64,000 bases of DNA, taken from positions 1 to 64,000 of the forward strand of contig JAPLRS010000011.1 of the NCBI GenBank assembly GCA_026399015.1. The letters run 5' to 3'. A program made the position numbers and the translations under genes. Position 1 is the stretch's first letter, and every line of letters starts with the position of its first letter. Shown in pieces: positions 18,679 through 41,463 of the stretch. A model generated the notes under the pieces. It was not told where the DNA came from and ran no database searches. It saw only the letters and a list, made by a program, of their open reading frames with translations. Source of the stretch: Methylococcales bacterium (GTDB lineage: Bacteria; Pseudomonadota; Gammaproteobacteria; Methylococcales; Methylomonadaceae).

Positions 18679-19090
18679 GGTGGTGAGGTAATTTAAAAAT
18701 CAAGTGACTATCTATTCAATAGCGGGCATTTTACAGCAAGACAACATTTCTTGCCCAAGTGCAAAGTCTTAATCCTATATCGTCTAAAAGCGAATCTATC
18801 TGCTCTCAATAACATAATATAAAAGGAGGCAATTACAGCTTATTTTCAAGCGCTGTTTGGATTCAATTTATTTTCCGTAGATTTGTATAATGCAACAAGC
18901 TAAGACAATTTAATGCTATTGCAATAAAAATCACAGATAATCCAGAAAAAATCGGCGATAATTCAGAGAAATTTCCTGAAAGATGACTTTTTCTCGACTT
19001 AGTTAAACTGGCTTTGATAATATAGGCACAACACGGACTTAAGCGAAATTTTTGATTTTATTTCACTTAAATTTCTAGCAAAAGCACCCA
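18679..19090. other. 410-bp gene-free, AT-rich gap
   Basis: No gene is supported. It holds an exact TATAAT at 18886-18891 on the plus strand without a good -35, an orphan AGGAGG near 18823 with no start codon behind it, and an imperfect direct repeat of GATAAT..CAGA (18936 and 18957, 21 bp apart). It probably contains the promoters of the two divergent flanking genes. Confidence 0.5.
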
Positions 19091-36810: not shown

Positions 36811-37398
36811 CTATAACAAAGGATTTATCAAAGTATCAATCGCTGCACGCGCTCTAAAAATGCGTGAACGAACAGTACCGACTGGGCAATCCATAGCCAG
36901 AGCAATTTCCTCATAACTCATTCCATCAAACTCTCTTAACTCAATAGCTACCCGCATTTCCTCTGGTAGGTCAGCTAAAGCCGTTTTTATAGTATCCATA
37001 ATTTCTTGCGTTAATAACAAACGCTCTGGGCTATCTAAGCCTTGTAATTGCGGTGCATTTTCTATTGCCTCCGCTTCTTGTACATCCACTTCAGAACTAC
37101 CACTTCGCCTAGCGCGGGCTAAGTTGTAATTTTTTGCCGTATTAATAGCAATTCTATAAAGCCAAGTATAAAAAGCCGCATCCCCCCTAAAACCACCTAA
37201 GGCCCGATAGGCTTTAATAAATGCCTCTTGTGCAACATCTTGTGCTTCAACAGGATCTTTAATATAACTATTAACCAGTTGAATGATTCTTTGTTGATAT
37301 TTAAGCACCAAAAAATCAAAGGCTGATTTATTACCCTGTTGAACAAGCGTTACCAAATCTTCGTCTAATTGTTCACTATAATTAATATGTTGGGCCAC
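36811..37398 (-). CDS. rpoE: RNA polymerase sigma-E factor (AlgU type)
   Basis: 195 residues, ECF sigma factor. Region 2 has FDFLVLKYQQRIIQLV and DVAQEAFIKAYRAL, and region 4 has GMSYEEIALAMDCPVGTVRS. It controls the outer-membrane stress response and is held by RseA, encoded next. Divergence from nadB is the classic gammaproteobacterial arrangement. Confidence 0.96.
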   Translation of the reverse strand: MAQHINYSEQLDEDLVTLVQQGNKSAFDFLVLKYQQRIIQLVNSYIKDPVEAQDVAQEAFIKAYRALGGFRGDAAFYTWLYRIAINTAKNYNLARARRSGSSEVDVQEAEAIENAPQLQGLDSPERLLLTQEIMDTIKTALADLPEEMRVAIELREFDGMSYEEIALAMDCPVGTVRSRIFRARAAIDTLINPLL

Positions 37399-37416
37399 TG
37401 CAGCTCTTTATCGTCT

Positions 37417-37444
37417 AATGGACAAATACAATTTCATAAAGTTC
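37417..37444 (-). promoter_or_regulatory. Candidate sigma-E autoregulatory promoter
   Basis: On the minus strand, GAACTT (37444-37439) is followed after 15 bp by GTCCATT (37423-37417). This resembles the sigma-E consensus GGAACTT-N15/16-GTCTAA, with the -35 box exact over six bases and the -10 partial. It lies about 20 bp before the rpoE start, which would make a very short leader. Confidence 0.4.
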
Positions 37445-37571
37445 GATGCAATACAAAAATTGTGTTATCTCTCAAAAAAGCGTTATTATCCCTAAACCCG
37501 TACGACTAAGCTACAACCTTAGGGCGATTTGTATGTGTCGCAACTAGCGTTGTTTATAAAAAAATAAATCT

Positions 37572-39173
37572 ATGCCTAACTCAATAAATTATGACGTTCT
37601 AATCATTGGCAGTGGTGGAGCAGGTCTTAGTTTAGCTCTTAGACTTGCTGAGCAAACCAACAACATTGCCGTTTTATCAAAATTCGCGCTTACTTCAAGC
37701 AGCACCTATTATGCACAAGGTGGTATATCTGCCGTTTTTGACGAAGGCGATTCTTTAGAATCACATATTGCCGATACTTTAGATGCCGGGGCTGACTTAT
37801 GTGACCCCGAGATTGTTAGATTGACCGTCTCTCACGGAAAAAGTTCCATTGAATGGTTATTAAAACAAGGTGTGGTGTTTACCGAAGAACAAAATCAAGC
37901 GGGCGAAGTACAATTACACCTTAATCGTGAAGGAGGACACTCACATCGCCGTATCGTGCACTCTGCAGACGCCACGGGTAAAGCCGTGTCTTTATCGTTA
38001 ATTGATAGAGCAAAAGAGCACGAAAACATAAGCTTATTAGAAGACCACAGTGTTGTTGAATTAATCACCCACATTTCAGATCATGACGCTAAAAAACAAG
38101 TTATTGGGGCTTATGTTTTAGATACAGAATCAAACCAAGTTAAAACTATTAAAGCCAAAATTGTCGTATTAGCAACAGGCGGCGCTAACATGGCTTACAT
38201 CTATAGCACTAACCCACACAGTTCTACAGGTGATGGAATTGCCTTAGCATGGCGGGCGGGTTGTCGGGTGAGCAATATGGAATTTATGCAATTCCACCCC
38301 ACTTGTCTCTATCATCCAGAAGCCAGAAACTTTCTTATTAGTGAAGCCTTAAGAGGTGAAGGCGGTAAATTAGTGCTAGCAGATGGTTCGCAATTTATGC
38401 ATAAATTTGATCCGCGCGGAGAACTGGCACCTAGAGATATCGTTGCCAGAGCTATTGATCATGAAATGAAAAAACGCGGTATAGAATGTGTTTATCTCGA
38501 TATCAGCCACAAACCCGCCGAGTTTATTATTGAACACTTCCCCACTATTTATAAACAGTGTCTTGAGTTTGATATAGATATCACTAAACAACCTATCCCT
38601 GTGGTACCTGCAGCCCATTACACCTGTGGTGGCGTATTGACTGATAACTATGCGCGAACAGATATTGAAAATTTATATGCAGTCGGCGAAGTTGCTTGTA
38701 CCGGTTTACACGGCGCTAACCGTATGGCGAGCAACTCTTTACTTGAATGTTTAGTTTTTGCTGAACGCGCCGGTGAAGATATCTTAACCAAATTACCCAA
38801 TATCCAAATTAACGCCACTATAGCCGACTGGGATGAATCGCAAGTTATAGATTCAGATGAAGAAGTTGTGGTTTCTCATAATTGGAATGAACTGAGACAT
38901 TTTATGTGGGACTATGTTGGCATCGTTAGAACCGACAAACGCCTCACAAGAGCGTTGAACCGAGTGGAATTACTCAAAAAAGAAATCAATGACTATTACG
39001 GTAACTTTAGAGTGACCAGTGATTTGTTAGAATTACGTAATTTAGTGATTGTTGCGGAGTTAATCATCCGCTGTGCATTACAACGCAAAGAAAGTCGTGG
39101 TCTACATTACACATTAGATTATCCTAAAACCGATAATACTAAACCACCCGCCAATACCATTCTTAAACCGTAG
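37572..39173 (+). CDS. nadB: L-aspartate oxidase
   Basis: 533 residues. FAD-dependent first enzyme of NAD synthesis, turning aspartate into iminoaspartate. [16 protein letters not shown] is the FAD-binding start, with [13 protein letters not shown], the catalytic [11 protein letters not shown] and [10 protein letters not shown]. No nadA or nadC is nearby. It is divergent from rpoE, and the 21-bp periodic array begins just after its stop codon. Confidence 0.97.
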
Positions 39174-39580
39174 GCTTTTAATACCAAAACCATCAGTTTA
39201 TTAATCAAATTACATCGTATTGATATTAAAGCTCCAGCTTATGATATCAATACAACGGGGATTAATATCTTTAGTCGTATTTATGATATCAATTCGACCA
39301 GATGTAGTATATAAACTTGTTTTTTTTATGTGAAATTATCCAATTTTAATATCAAAAGCCACATTCTTGATACTGTTAACAACTTTTTTGATATCTAATC
39401 TGTTATTTTATATATCACATCGCTTTGATTTAATATCTCATCAGGTCAATCAGATACTACAACTGACTATATTTATACCTTGTCAGTTTAAGATCACATC
39501 ATAAGTATTGATAATATAGGTTTAATATTTGATTTCATAACATATAGGGTTACTTTAAAAGCCCCCTTAATAACAGACAT
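39174..39580. repeat. Array of about sixteen 21-bp units with an NATATC core
   Basis: A degenerate hexamer starts at 39180, 39201, 39222, 39243, 39264, 39285, 39306, 39327, 39348, 39369, 39390, 39411, 39432, 39453, 39474 and 39495, each exactly 21 bp on. The hexamers are AATACC, TTAATC, GATATT, GATATC, AATATC, GATATC, AGTATA, TATGTG, AATATC, GATACT, GATATC, TATATC, AATATC, GATACT, TATACC and CACATC. A second fixed point is a C or G ten bases into the unit in nearly every case, although the region is very AT-rich. The 15 bp between hexamers otherwise differ. Two more units (GATAAT 39510, GATTTC 39531) follow in a phase shifted by 6 bp. The 13-mer at 39239-39251 recurs exactly at 39281-39293. 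In the frame that reads the hexamers as two codons, stops occur at 39312, 39396, 39426 and 39486, so no intact protein is encoded. Nature unknown. Confidence 0.75.
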
Positions 39581-39614
39581 AAAAAAAGCCTTACATCTTC
39601 ATGTAAAGCTTTTT
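39581..39614 (-). terminator. Intrinsic terminator of the dedA gene
   Basis: Arms 39583-39596 and 39601-39614 pair (AAAAAGC-TTACAT with ATGTAA-GCTTTTT, one mismatch) around a CTTC loop. On the minus strand a T-run of seven follows. It lies 34 bp past the dedA stop and marks the right limit of the periodic array. Confidence 0.8.
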
Positions 39615-39648
39615 GGTCTAGAGATGTTTTCTTATTACTGAAAACAAC

Positions 39649-40239
39649 TTATTGAAAGCGTGCTTTTCTCTTCTCTAAAAAATACATCTCAAGTTTACTA
39701 AAGTAGTAATACAAGCCATAAAGGAATCCACCGGCAATGGGCAATGCAAAATACCAATGGGCTTTTGCAAAAGCTAATAATTCTAAAATTTGTGCACCAT
39801 ATATATAAGCTGGCGTAACAGTAATTGCCGCCCATACCCAAGCACTTAATAGATTAATAAAAGCGAATTTTTTAGCAGAATATTTAGTGATGCCAATCGA
39901 CATAGGTATAACGGTTCGTAAACCGTACATATAACGCTGTAAGAAAATAATTGGCCAGCCGTATTTTCTTAATAACAAATGCGCGATAGCAAATTTAATT
40001 CTTTGATTATGAAGTTTACGCTGAATATAGCCTTTATTAAATCGACCAATATAAAAATAAATTTGATCACCCGTAAAACCACCTAATCCAGCGACAAATA
40101 TCGTCATAAAATATTGCATGTCTCCAGTATGAGACATGATCCCCCCCATGATGAGGCCCATTTCACCTTCAAGAATACTCCAAAGAAATAAAATGATATA
40201 ACCATATTCTTTTAGCAACTCTATAAAAAACTCTTCCAT
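39649..40239 (-). CDS. DedA-family membrane protein
   Basis: 196 residues with several membrane segments. The family pattern is seen in GGFTGDQIYFYIGR and in QRYMYGLRTVIPMSIGITK. DedA proteins act as lipid carrier (undecaprenyl phosphate or phospholipid) flippases and affect proton-motive force. It is transcribed alone and ends at the hairpin above. Confidence 0.88.
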   Translation of the reverse strand: MEEFFIELLKEYGYIILFLWSILEGEMGLIMGGIMSHTGDMQYFMTIFVAGLGGFTGDQIYFYIGRFNKGYIQRKLHNQRIKFAIAHLLLRKYGWPIIFLQRYMYGLRTVIPMSIGITKYSAKKFAFINLLSAWVWAAITVTPAYIYGAQILELLAFAKAHWYFALPIAGGFLYGLYYYFSKLEMYFLEKRKARFQ

Positions 40240-40486
40240 ATTAACCTTTATTTTTGTTGATCAATCGCAACACTCCTAGGTAATTAAATGTTAACCCATG
40301 CGATCATTTTATGAGGTTCGCTATATTAGCATAGCCATTTATTAATTGACTGAATTCAGGTTTTTATTAGGGGGATTTATTTAATCAACTTATGAGATTA
40401 CTACACATTTATATTTAGATTCTAAATATTTGTATTAGATAAATATGAAAAATCAAAACTTAAAACAATGCTTTTCTTGTCATATA

Positions 40487-40678
40487 TTAAATGGAATTAA
40501 TAAAATCCATTAGAACCAGCATTAACTCATCATCCTCTAAAGCTAACAACTCCACAAACTGCGTTTTCTTTAGCTCAGAGGATGTTGAATAACGGGTTTC
40601 CAAATAATCCATTAAAAGTAAATCTAACTCTTTAGTGCCTCGCCTACATCGCCACCTAAGCTTAGATAACTCTACCAT
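40487..40678 (-). CDS. sdhE: Succinate dehydrogenase flavinylation factor SdhE
   Basis: 63 residues, somewhat short for the family (about 85). The RGxxE motif needed for flavin attachment to SdhA is visible as RRGTKELD near 13-20, and FVELLALEDDEL is typical. It overlaps sdhB by one base and ends the sdhCDAB operon. It promotes covalent FAD loading onto SdhA. Confidence 0.9.
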   Translation of the reverse strand: MVELSKLRWRCRRGTKELDLLLMDYLETRYSTSSELKKTQFVELLALEDDELMLVLMDFINSI

Positions 40679-41463
40679 TAGCCCAGTTTTCTTTGCACTA
40701 ATAATTTTTTAGTTTCTGCAATTGCTTTGGCAGGATTCAAGCCCTTAGGACAGGTATCTGTACAATTCATAATTGTATGACAACGATACAATTTAAACGG
40801 ATCTTCAAGTTCGTCAAGGCGCTCTCCGGTATTTTCATCACGACTATCCACTAACCATCGATACGCTTGCAATAAGACAGCAGGCCCTAAATAACGCTCG
40901 CCATTCCACCAATAACTTGGACAACTTGTTGAGCAACATGCGCATAAAACACATTCATATAAGCCATCTAATACCTCACGATCTTCTTTACTTTGTAAGC
41001 GTTCAGTATCTGACGGTGCTGGCGTTTGTGTTTCTATCCAGGGTTTAATTGAAGCATATTGCGCATAAAAATGCGTCATATCTGGCACTAAATCCTTTAC
41101 CACTTCCATATGAGGTAAAGGAAATATCTTTATGGTATCCGAATATTCATCAATGGCTTTTGTACAAACCAGCGTATTTTTACCATTAACATTCATAGCA
41201 CAAGATCCGCATACACCTTCTCGACAAGAGCGTCTGAAGGTTAAGCTACTATCAACTTCATTTTTAATCTTTAAGATAGCATCTAATACCATAGGTCCAC
41301 AGTTATCCATATCTAACTCATAAATATCGATACGAGGATTTTCTGCAGTTTCAGGATCCCAGCGATACACCTCAAATCGCCGAACATTTTTAGCGGCTTC
41401 TGGTGCTTTATAGGTGGTCCCTTTAATTAAGGTTGAATTCTTCGGTAAGGTGAACTCTGCCAT
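40678..41463 (-). CDS. sdhB: Succinate dehydrogenase iron-sulfur subunit
   Basis: 261 residues. Three cluster motifs are complete: [2Fe-2S] [15 protein letters not shown] with a later Cys, [4Fe-4S] [12 protein letters not shown], and [3Fe-4S] [14 protein letters not shown]. It carries electrons from SdhA to the membrane quinone site. Its start overlaps the sdhA stop by one base. Confidence 0.97.

Follow-up and report, generated by a model that had tools for sequence, protein, structure and literature searches.

Phased 20/21-bp arrays with dyad-symmetric units are dispersed in one methanotroph genus, many of them beside a multicopy FN3-like gene

The DNA analysed here (the window) is a stretch of 64,000 nucleotides from a Methylococcales bacterium (positions 1 to 64,000 of contig JAPLRS010000011.1, assembly GCA_026399015.1). 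Between two convergent genes it holds an intergenic array of short units that recur every 21 bp; genomes, contigs and loci of the comparison carry G, C and L numbers.

37572 to 39173, plus strand: nadB (L-aspartate oxidase), the upstream neighbour, pointing towards the array (open reading frame list; relatives)
39178 to 39513, no strand: 16 in-register 21-bp units (row layout, column counts)
39213 to 39574, ends good to a few bases, no strand: the array proper as a presence/absence unit, absent from the relative G022, whose spacer is collinear apart from this (alignment of nadB-dedA spacers)
39510 to 39557, no strand: a weak tail with the lattice shifted by 6 bp, the aligned stretch also occurring in G006 (sequence, alignment)
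39581 to 39614, no strand: a hairpin bearing A and T tracts, which G022 and G006 have retained (read by eye)
39649 to 40239, minus strand: a DedA/VTT-domain membrane protein, the downstream neighbour, pointing towards the array (PF09335, E 3e-13)

The upstream gene is presumably nadB, a name taken from the original prediction rather than from a family search, and the hairpin looks like an ordinary bidirectional terminator. From the letters of the DNA, the original prediction had described a degenerate NATATC hexamer recurring in strict 21-bp steps after nadB, and this description was borne out. Laid out from 39178, the interval falls into 16 rows in register with the consensus TTRATATCWAWWCNNNYNNTT and the palindromic core TTGATATCAA; its conserved columns are T (13/16), A (14/16), T (14/16), A (15/16), T or C (16/16) and C (11/16). 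A second fixed position, also foreseen, lies in column 12 (C or G in 13/16 rows). Good matches proved slightly fewer than the dozen or so first counted, ATATC being exact in 7/16 rows and within one mismatch in 11/16, and the shifted pair of units at 39510 and 39531 exists but is weak. The rows at 39180 and 39201 may be flank rather than array, because they are largely kept in the otherwise empty site of G022.

The period-21 self-match of 39174-39580 was 0.435, compared to a mean of 0.304 (sd 0.022; maximum 0.381) in 2000 dinucleotide shuffles, none of which reached the observed value (5.9 sd above the mean); the best shuffle value at any period from 5 to 60 was 0.414. Period 42 scored slightly above period 21 (0.471), and the array is the strongest periodic stretch of the whole window (350-base frames, periods 5-60). 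Pairs of ATATC at 21 bp occur six times in the window against 0.15 expected, five of them inside the array and one in nadB, and all seven inverted 12-mer pairs of the array share one dyad phase (overlapping pairs, not independent). Tandem Repeats Finder with a minimum score of 30 did not report the array, because its units are too divergent. The same program listed short 21-bp tandem repeats at 40391-40440 and 18926-18971 (2.4 and 2.2 copies).

We then asked whether such arrays occur elsewhere. BLAST (E <= 0.001) found no second copy in the organism's own genome, a 2.70-Mb draft that is 86% complete in 47 contigs. A ten-unit phased weight matrix built from the window units nevertheless picked out a second array on contig C38 (score 20.3), everything outside these two arrays scoring -19.0 or lower, and of the loci retrieved with a loose pattern, none but the window and C38 scored as arrays. 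The C38 array consists of 42-bp repeats made of two 21-bp halves, and it adjoins a nucleotidyltransferase-like gene with a short partner; a third, smaller array lies on the other side. This segment (L112:8277-9996; C38:42490-44209) thus has an NTP_transf_2 gene and a short ORF without Pfam match with a 21-bp array on either side, one of the two being a clean 42-bp repeat, and we take the gene pair to resemble a HEPN/MNT-like arrangement.

In the own genome 484 kb were scanned, including 84 kb selected for known arrays in or near it, and 15 periodic stretches lay outside ORFs of 200 aa. Six had period 21 and one period 40; the others had periods of 15, 24, 27, 37 and 39 bp, and these we count against the explanation preferred below. 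In 400 kb of G006 there were twelve stretches, eight with period 21 (about six arrays, some linked to the gene family described below), one clear 22, and others with periods 15, 16 and 18, while 400 kb of G031, which lacks that family, had four (two of period 23, one of period 36, and a period-21 stretch that looks coding). Several further repeats were seen along the way. A nearly perfect 21-bp array, AACCAACTGAGCATTCAGCTA, lies on C42 (L304:14040-14496) between genes that by eye are isocitrate dehydrogenase-like and MsbA-like (ABC transporter), and the 139-aa ORF spanning it is probably spurious. Many stretches of 27-bp period at C39:42333-45337, C39:96277-99260 and C25:19208-23857 sit nearly all inside long open frames with nine-residue repeats, which we presume to be RTX-like. 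Stretches of 39-bp period outside ORFs of at least 200 aa occur at L304:1-306 (C42) and L313:189-418 (C25), and L340:230-616 (G006:C9) is a period-22 array with palindromic units.

The genome falls in the Methylobacter clade: its nearest NadB relatives come from Methylobacter and from other Methylococcales, with Methylobacter psychrophilus Z-0021 (85%) the closest of them. Five ATAT at 21-bp steps (up to two mismatches) matched 14 of 61 genomes, all within the genus (14/35; 0/26 outside). A reversed-pattern control also matched array-bearing genomes (44 versus 14 per strand in G033, 26 versus 27 in G012) as well as genomes without pattern matches, such as G002, G016, G018, G023 and G024, so the ATAT count alone proves little, and we give weight instead to the scans of gene, random and null loci below; the reversed matches probably come from phased arrays of other sequence. 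All 17 fetched ATAT-pattern regions scored as 21/42-bp periodic. Eleven of these overlap no ORF of at least 80 aa and six overlap one (L130, L132, L133, L136, L140 and L145); in five the ORF may be a chance product of the repeats, and L133 may be truly coding. Periodicity of 21 bp, which the original prediction had proposed to look for, is thus present both in relatives and in the rest of the genome. Many dispersed non-coding arrays exist in one methanotroph genus, and the window array is one member. NATATC is only one among many array sequences, a point that the original prediction missed along with the link to a multicopy gene family.

Array length is similar throughout (median 386 bp, IQR 297-490; 65 of 71 tested loci with an array over 0.45), and periods are mostly 20 or 21. 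The rival first proposed, a decayed gene for a seven-residue peptide repeat, draws on 21 bp being seven codons. It is contradicted by the period of 20 in 13 of the 65 arrays and by open frames that cover 0.63 of array length against 0.64 in column-permuted controls (fully open, 7 observed and 8.5 expected), and the window array itself has no ORF of 60 aa. We therefore rejected a coding reading for the whole set and regard its probability as close to nil. A CRISPR array was also rejected, the 20/21-bp units being contiguous and without spacers.

Four of the pattern-found arrays come after an ORF of about 218 aa, which belongs to a family of proteins of about 205 aa. With one query this family turned up in 25 of 61 genomes, every one of them from the genus, and with another in 26 of the 35 genus members; a single genome gave as many as 21 and 25 matches to the two queries (12 and 13 in the own genome). 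Among the 31 genomes reached via NadB loci, 7 had the family, including M. psychrophilus, and 24 gave no match, including M. marinus and M. luteus. The C-terminal half of the protein is FN3-like: a 12-member profile matched numerous FN3 proteins, among them titin (E 6.9e-15, positions 141-194), while Pfam fn3 matched 4 of 12 members only below cut-off (best E 0.008). For three members, NCBIfam gave no match and Pfam one at chance level; defence families were rejected, PADLOC giving no match for 3 members. A tblastn search with one member found nothing in 50,697 phage and 72,556 plasmid records, and viral_contigs yielded no confirmed relative of two members and no exact match of one array pattern; as far as these collections go, a phage, plasmid or viral origin of the gene was rejected. 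In 398 genomes of the phylum, the own included, a single-protein search found nothing, and a profile search gave one weak FN3-like match outside the own genome; in the own genome it listed 7 matches against 12 in the direct search, marking its sensitivity as limited.

The association was measured in 51 gene copies (11 own, 40 from relatives) that were not chosen by period, with up to 1 kb on each side and periods 12-33. The relatives' copies were taken in listing order, skipping those that start less than 2 kb from a contig start and L135, L137, L139 and L142; L199, a fragment match and the twelfth in the own genome, was excluded. In 400 random segments of NadB loci the 95th and 99th percentiles at any period were 0.448 and 0.500. 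A 20/21-bp array lay within 1 kb of the gene in 40 of the 51 copies at a threshold of 0.47 (42 at 0.44; 36 at 0.50), compared to 29/1000 random sites in G000, 30/1000 in G006 and 2/1000 in G031. With periods left free, 43 loci scored at least 0.47, their best period being 20 (14 loci), 21 (26), 31 (2) or 14 (1), so that the best unit was 20 or 21 bp in 40 of 43, and 8 fell below threshold. In 80 null loci, none of the seven stretches scoring at least 0.48 had period 20 or 21. Several of the 11 copies without a 20/21-bp array had one flank cut by a contig end, and two had period 31. Downstream of the linked gene, L211 (G014:C82) and L213 (G006:C40) have arrays whose 31/62-bp period approximates three and six helical turns.

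The link is not universal, and its exceptions weigh against our preferred explanation. In the scanned 484 kb, at least five arrays stand apart from any gene copy (the window's, two on C38, C42:14040-14496 and C25:774-971); no relics of the family were detectable in the window or beside the C38 arrays. G003, in which the gene was not found, carries a 42-bp array of the same phase. Arrays were related in 15 of 57 gene pairs with at least 55% protein identity and in 2 of 933 below; related arrays thus go with related genes, and array sequence turns over fast. The 42 close gene pairs whose arrays show no recognisable relation count against the preferred explanation. The next most frequent neighbour families after the FN3-like one were seen at just 5 and 4 of the 51 loci.

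Gene-linked arrays look mutually unrelated, as a comparison of AGCTTTAGCAAGGTGAGTTAA with CGAGCAGAAGTACGTCAAAC illustrates. Clustering 55 of the 21-bp arrays gave 30 families without BLAST relation; the largest (18 arrays) is the window's, and 25 contain a single array. What the arrays have in common is symmetry. Palindromicity exceeded that of column-permuted controls with a mean z of 2.46±0.21 (65 arrays; 42 above 2, 6 below 0), and of 1.95±0.32 when each family except the largest was represented by a single array (16/29 above 2). Inverted 12-mer pairs occurred in 9 of 11 examined arrays, all pairs falling into a single dyad phase in 8 of those 9 (L131 84/84, L189 50/50, L198 24/24; overlapping pairs, not independent). 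L188 and L192 had no inverted pairs and L196 had two main dyad phases, which again speaks against the preferred explanation. MAFFT alignment of overlapping array rows collapsed into register. When families were superposed on their dyads a weak common pattern appeared, with T/A enriched 5.5-7.5 bp from the dyad and C at distances of 3.5 and 9.5 bp (44 values, the highest z being 4.5), and distant common descent could be its source.

Symmetry of this kind might act in RNA, the array being transcribed from either strand and its repeated hairpins working in the leader of the linked gene. Folding energy was indeed below column-permuted controls, and the arrays mostly precede the gene (32 upstream, 7 downstream, 1 both). 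The folding excess was about equal on the two strands (mean z -1.54±0.33 and -1.68±0.33; 39 arrays), as palindromic DNA predicts, the window array lies between convergent genes, and Rfam at its gathering threshold gave no match in window positions 37000-41000, the region scanned. Hairpins also give no reason for a 20/21-bp unit, and we consider this reading improbable.

A second possibility is a sequence-neutral DNA shape, in which repetition of any motif every two turns would produce a curved or writhed segment that serves as a topological sink, loop apex or domain border, with no dedicated reader. Consistent with this, the families share their period and weak dyad features, and predicted curvature, computed from wedge values, was slightly above column-permuted controls (mean z 0.58±0.18 in 39 arrays; 2.8 in the window). 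Phasing alone accounts for most of the predicted curvature, however, many arrays have z about 0 or below, and curvature needs no dyad symmetry. We regard shape by itself as unlikely, if less so than a role in RNA.

Comparison of related sites shows how the arrays change. In 20 nadB loci fetched from the genus, a 20/21-bp array over 0.47 follows nadB only in G006. G022 has an empty site with intact flanks, and in G012 and G032 dedA lies 96 and 72 bp after nadB with no array; the other loci mostly have different neighbours, and the contigs of G008, G014 and G027 end within 320 bp, too early to tell. In L282 (G009:C234) the place that the array alone fills in the window is taken by a copy of the FN3-like gene, which ends 53 bp beyond nadB and is followed by a 41/42-bp periodic stretch. 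The window and G006 arrays are 93% identical and differ by indels of 126, 21 and 1 bp, and L137 and L139 by indels of 42, 21 and 1. L220 and L223 (G034 and the single-contig G019) align over 304 bp at 89% with no indel, which argues against a draft-assembly artefact. These three of the eight top-scoring related pairs thus have whole-unit indels, 1-bp indels or none. The other five carry other lengths (13, 9, 9, 5 and 3 in L141/L142; 39, 1 and 1 in L235/L243; also L192/L229, L131/L138 and L229/L242), and they count against the preferred explanation, as does the small difference between core and linker substitutions in the window/G006 pair (7/126 and 16/169 columns); the ends compared for indels include some flank.

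Slippage during replication yields whole-unit indels, and the arrays might be minisatellites kept by chance, with the 20/21-bp unit as a mechanistic bias. L229, L130 and L242 are nearly perfect, recent repeats, and other non-coding periods do exist. Such a process sits poorly with the narrow choice of unit at gene loci (40/43), with degenerate arrays such as the window's that hold phase despite little homology between units, with the mostly fixed dyad phase and with the strong gene association, and we hold it to be distinctly unlikely.

Presence and absence at the nadB-dedA site among close relatives could instead reflect a non-autonomous, REP/BIME-kind mobile repeat spreading among intergenic sites. 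Arrays of one family at several loci of a genome, palindromic units in both orientations, and related arrays accompanying related genes would all fit. Y1 transposases (PF01797), by contrast, were detected in 26 of the 35 genomes of the genus, but none was found in G000, G006, G008, G009, G011, G022 and G028, which all bear arrays. Most families consist of one array, neighbours other than the FN3-like gene seldom recur, and no target-site duplication was evident by eye in the alignment of nadB-dedA spacers. Mobility of this sort seems quite improbable to us.

Units of nearly whole turns, dyads and similar size across unrelated sequences suggest that duplex DNA is read by its geometry, most simply by dimers packed at two turns. 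Our tentatively preferred explanation, which we put forward as possible rather than probable, is that the array is a platform bound by a two-fold-symmetric DNA-binding protein that reads spacing. Dyad sites on one helix face would be occupied side by side by a putative nucleoid-type protein, which would read spacing and local shape more than exact sequence; the resulting local nucleoprotein filament or loop may insulate or silence its surroundings or control the linked FN3-like gene, and selection on spacing would keep the phase while the sequence turns over. A single sequence-specific protein is unlikely because the consensus differs so much between families. The original prediction had placed every core on one DNA face in a cooperative binding array: the geometric part stands, unrelated arrays sharing a period of about two turns and dyads, and the binder remains putative. 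The linked protein is an awkward candidate, FN3-like proteins not being known DNA binders and the pI being 5.4-7.0 in 11 of 12 members, mostly mildly acidic or neutral, which we count against the explanation.

Several known systems resemble parts of this arrangement. Fis, a dyad-binding nucleoid protein, has degenerate palindromic sites, and its dimers may pack at about one per 21 bp; degenerate palindromic sites at two turns are likewise what we find, as putative binding sites. In plasmid iterons and partition centromeres, units of about 20 bp recur directly at helical spacing, and each array has its own consensus and adjoins one gene. The arrays described here differ in being many, dispersed and chromosomal, in having more units and a dyad lattice, and in their partner, which is neither a replication nor a partition protein. 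In life style the nearest known system is REP/BIME with RAYT, in which intergenic palindromic units in both orientations have species-specific sequence and a co-evolving linked gene (PMC2817692). Our arrays likewise have palindromic units in both orientations, are intergenic and co-vary with a linked gene. They differ in that units run head to tail on a two-turn lattice without spacers and the linked gene is FN3-like, not a Y1 transposase; membership of REP/RAYT was rejected, PF01797 being undetected in the seven array-bearing genomes named above. Helically phased A-tract DNA also locks sequence periodicity to the helix, with possible curvature (PMC3940949). The period here is two turns rather than one, the motifs are mostly not A-tracts, and the arrays are discrete (about 390 bp), many of them beside one gene family. 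A literature search, with most subscription papers and all bioRxiv preprints outside its reach, found no description of such arrays.

It is possible, though short of probable, that these arrays form a new class of chromosomal element in which geometry is kept (dyads at two turns, about 390 bp) and sequence is private to each locus, each gene-linked array being paired with its own FN3-like paralogue and the two possibly recognising each other. Most regulatory DNA is believed to be read by its sequence. In these genomes, dozens of arrays of unrelated sequence have helical period, dyads and size in common. If geometry is what is selected, the arrays would offer a natural setting in which to study how chromatin proteins of bacteria recognise spacing. 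Many of them are tied to one unstudied multicopy gene family, which supplies a concrete partner gene, and Methylobacter psychrophilus Z-0021 is a named isolate in which these ideas could be tested.
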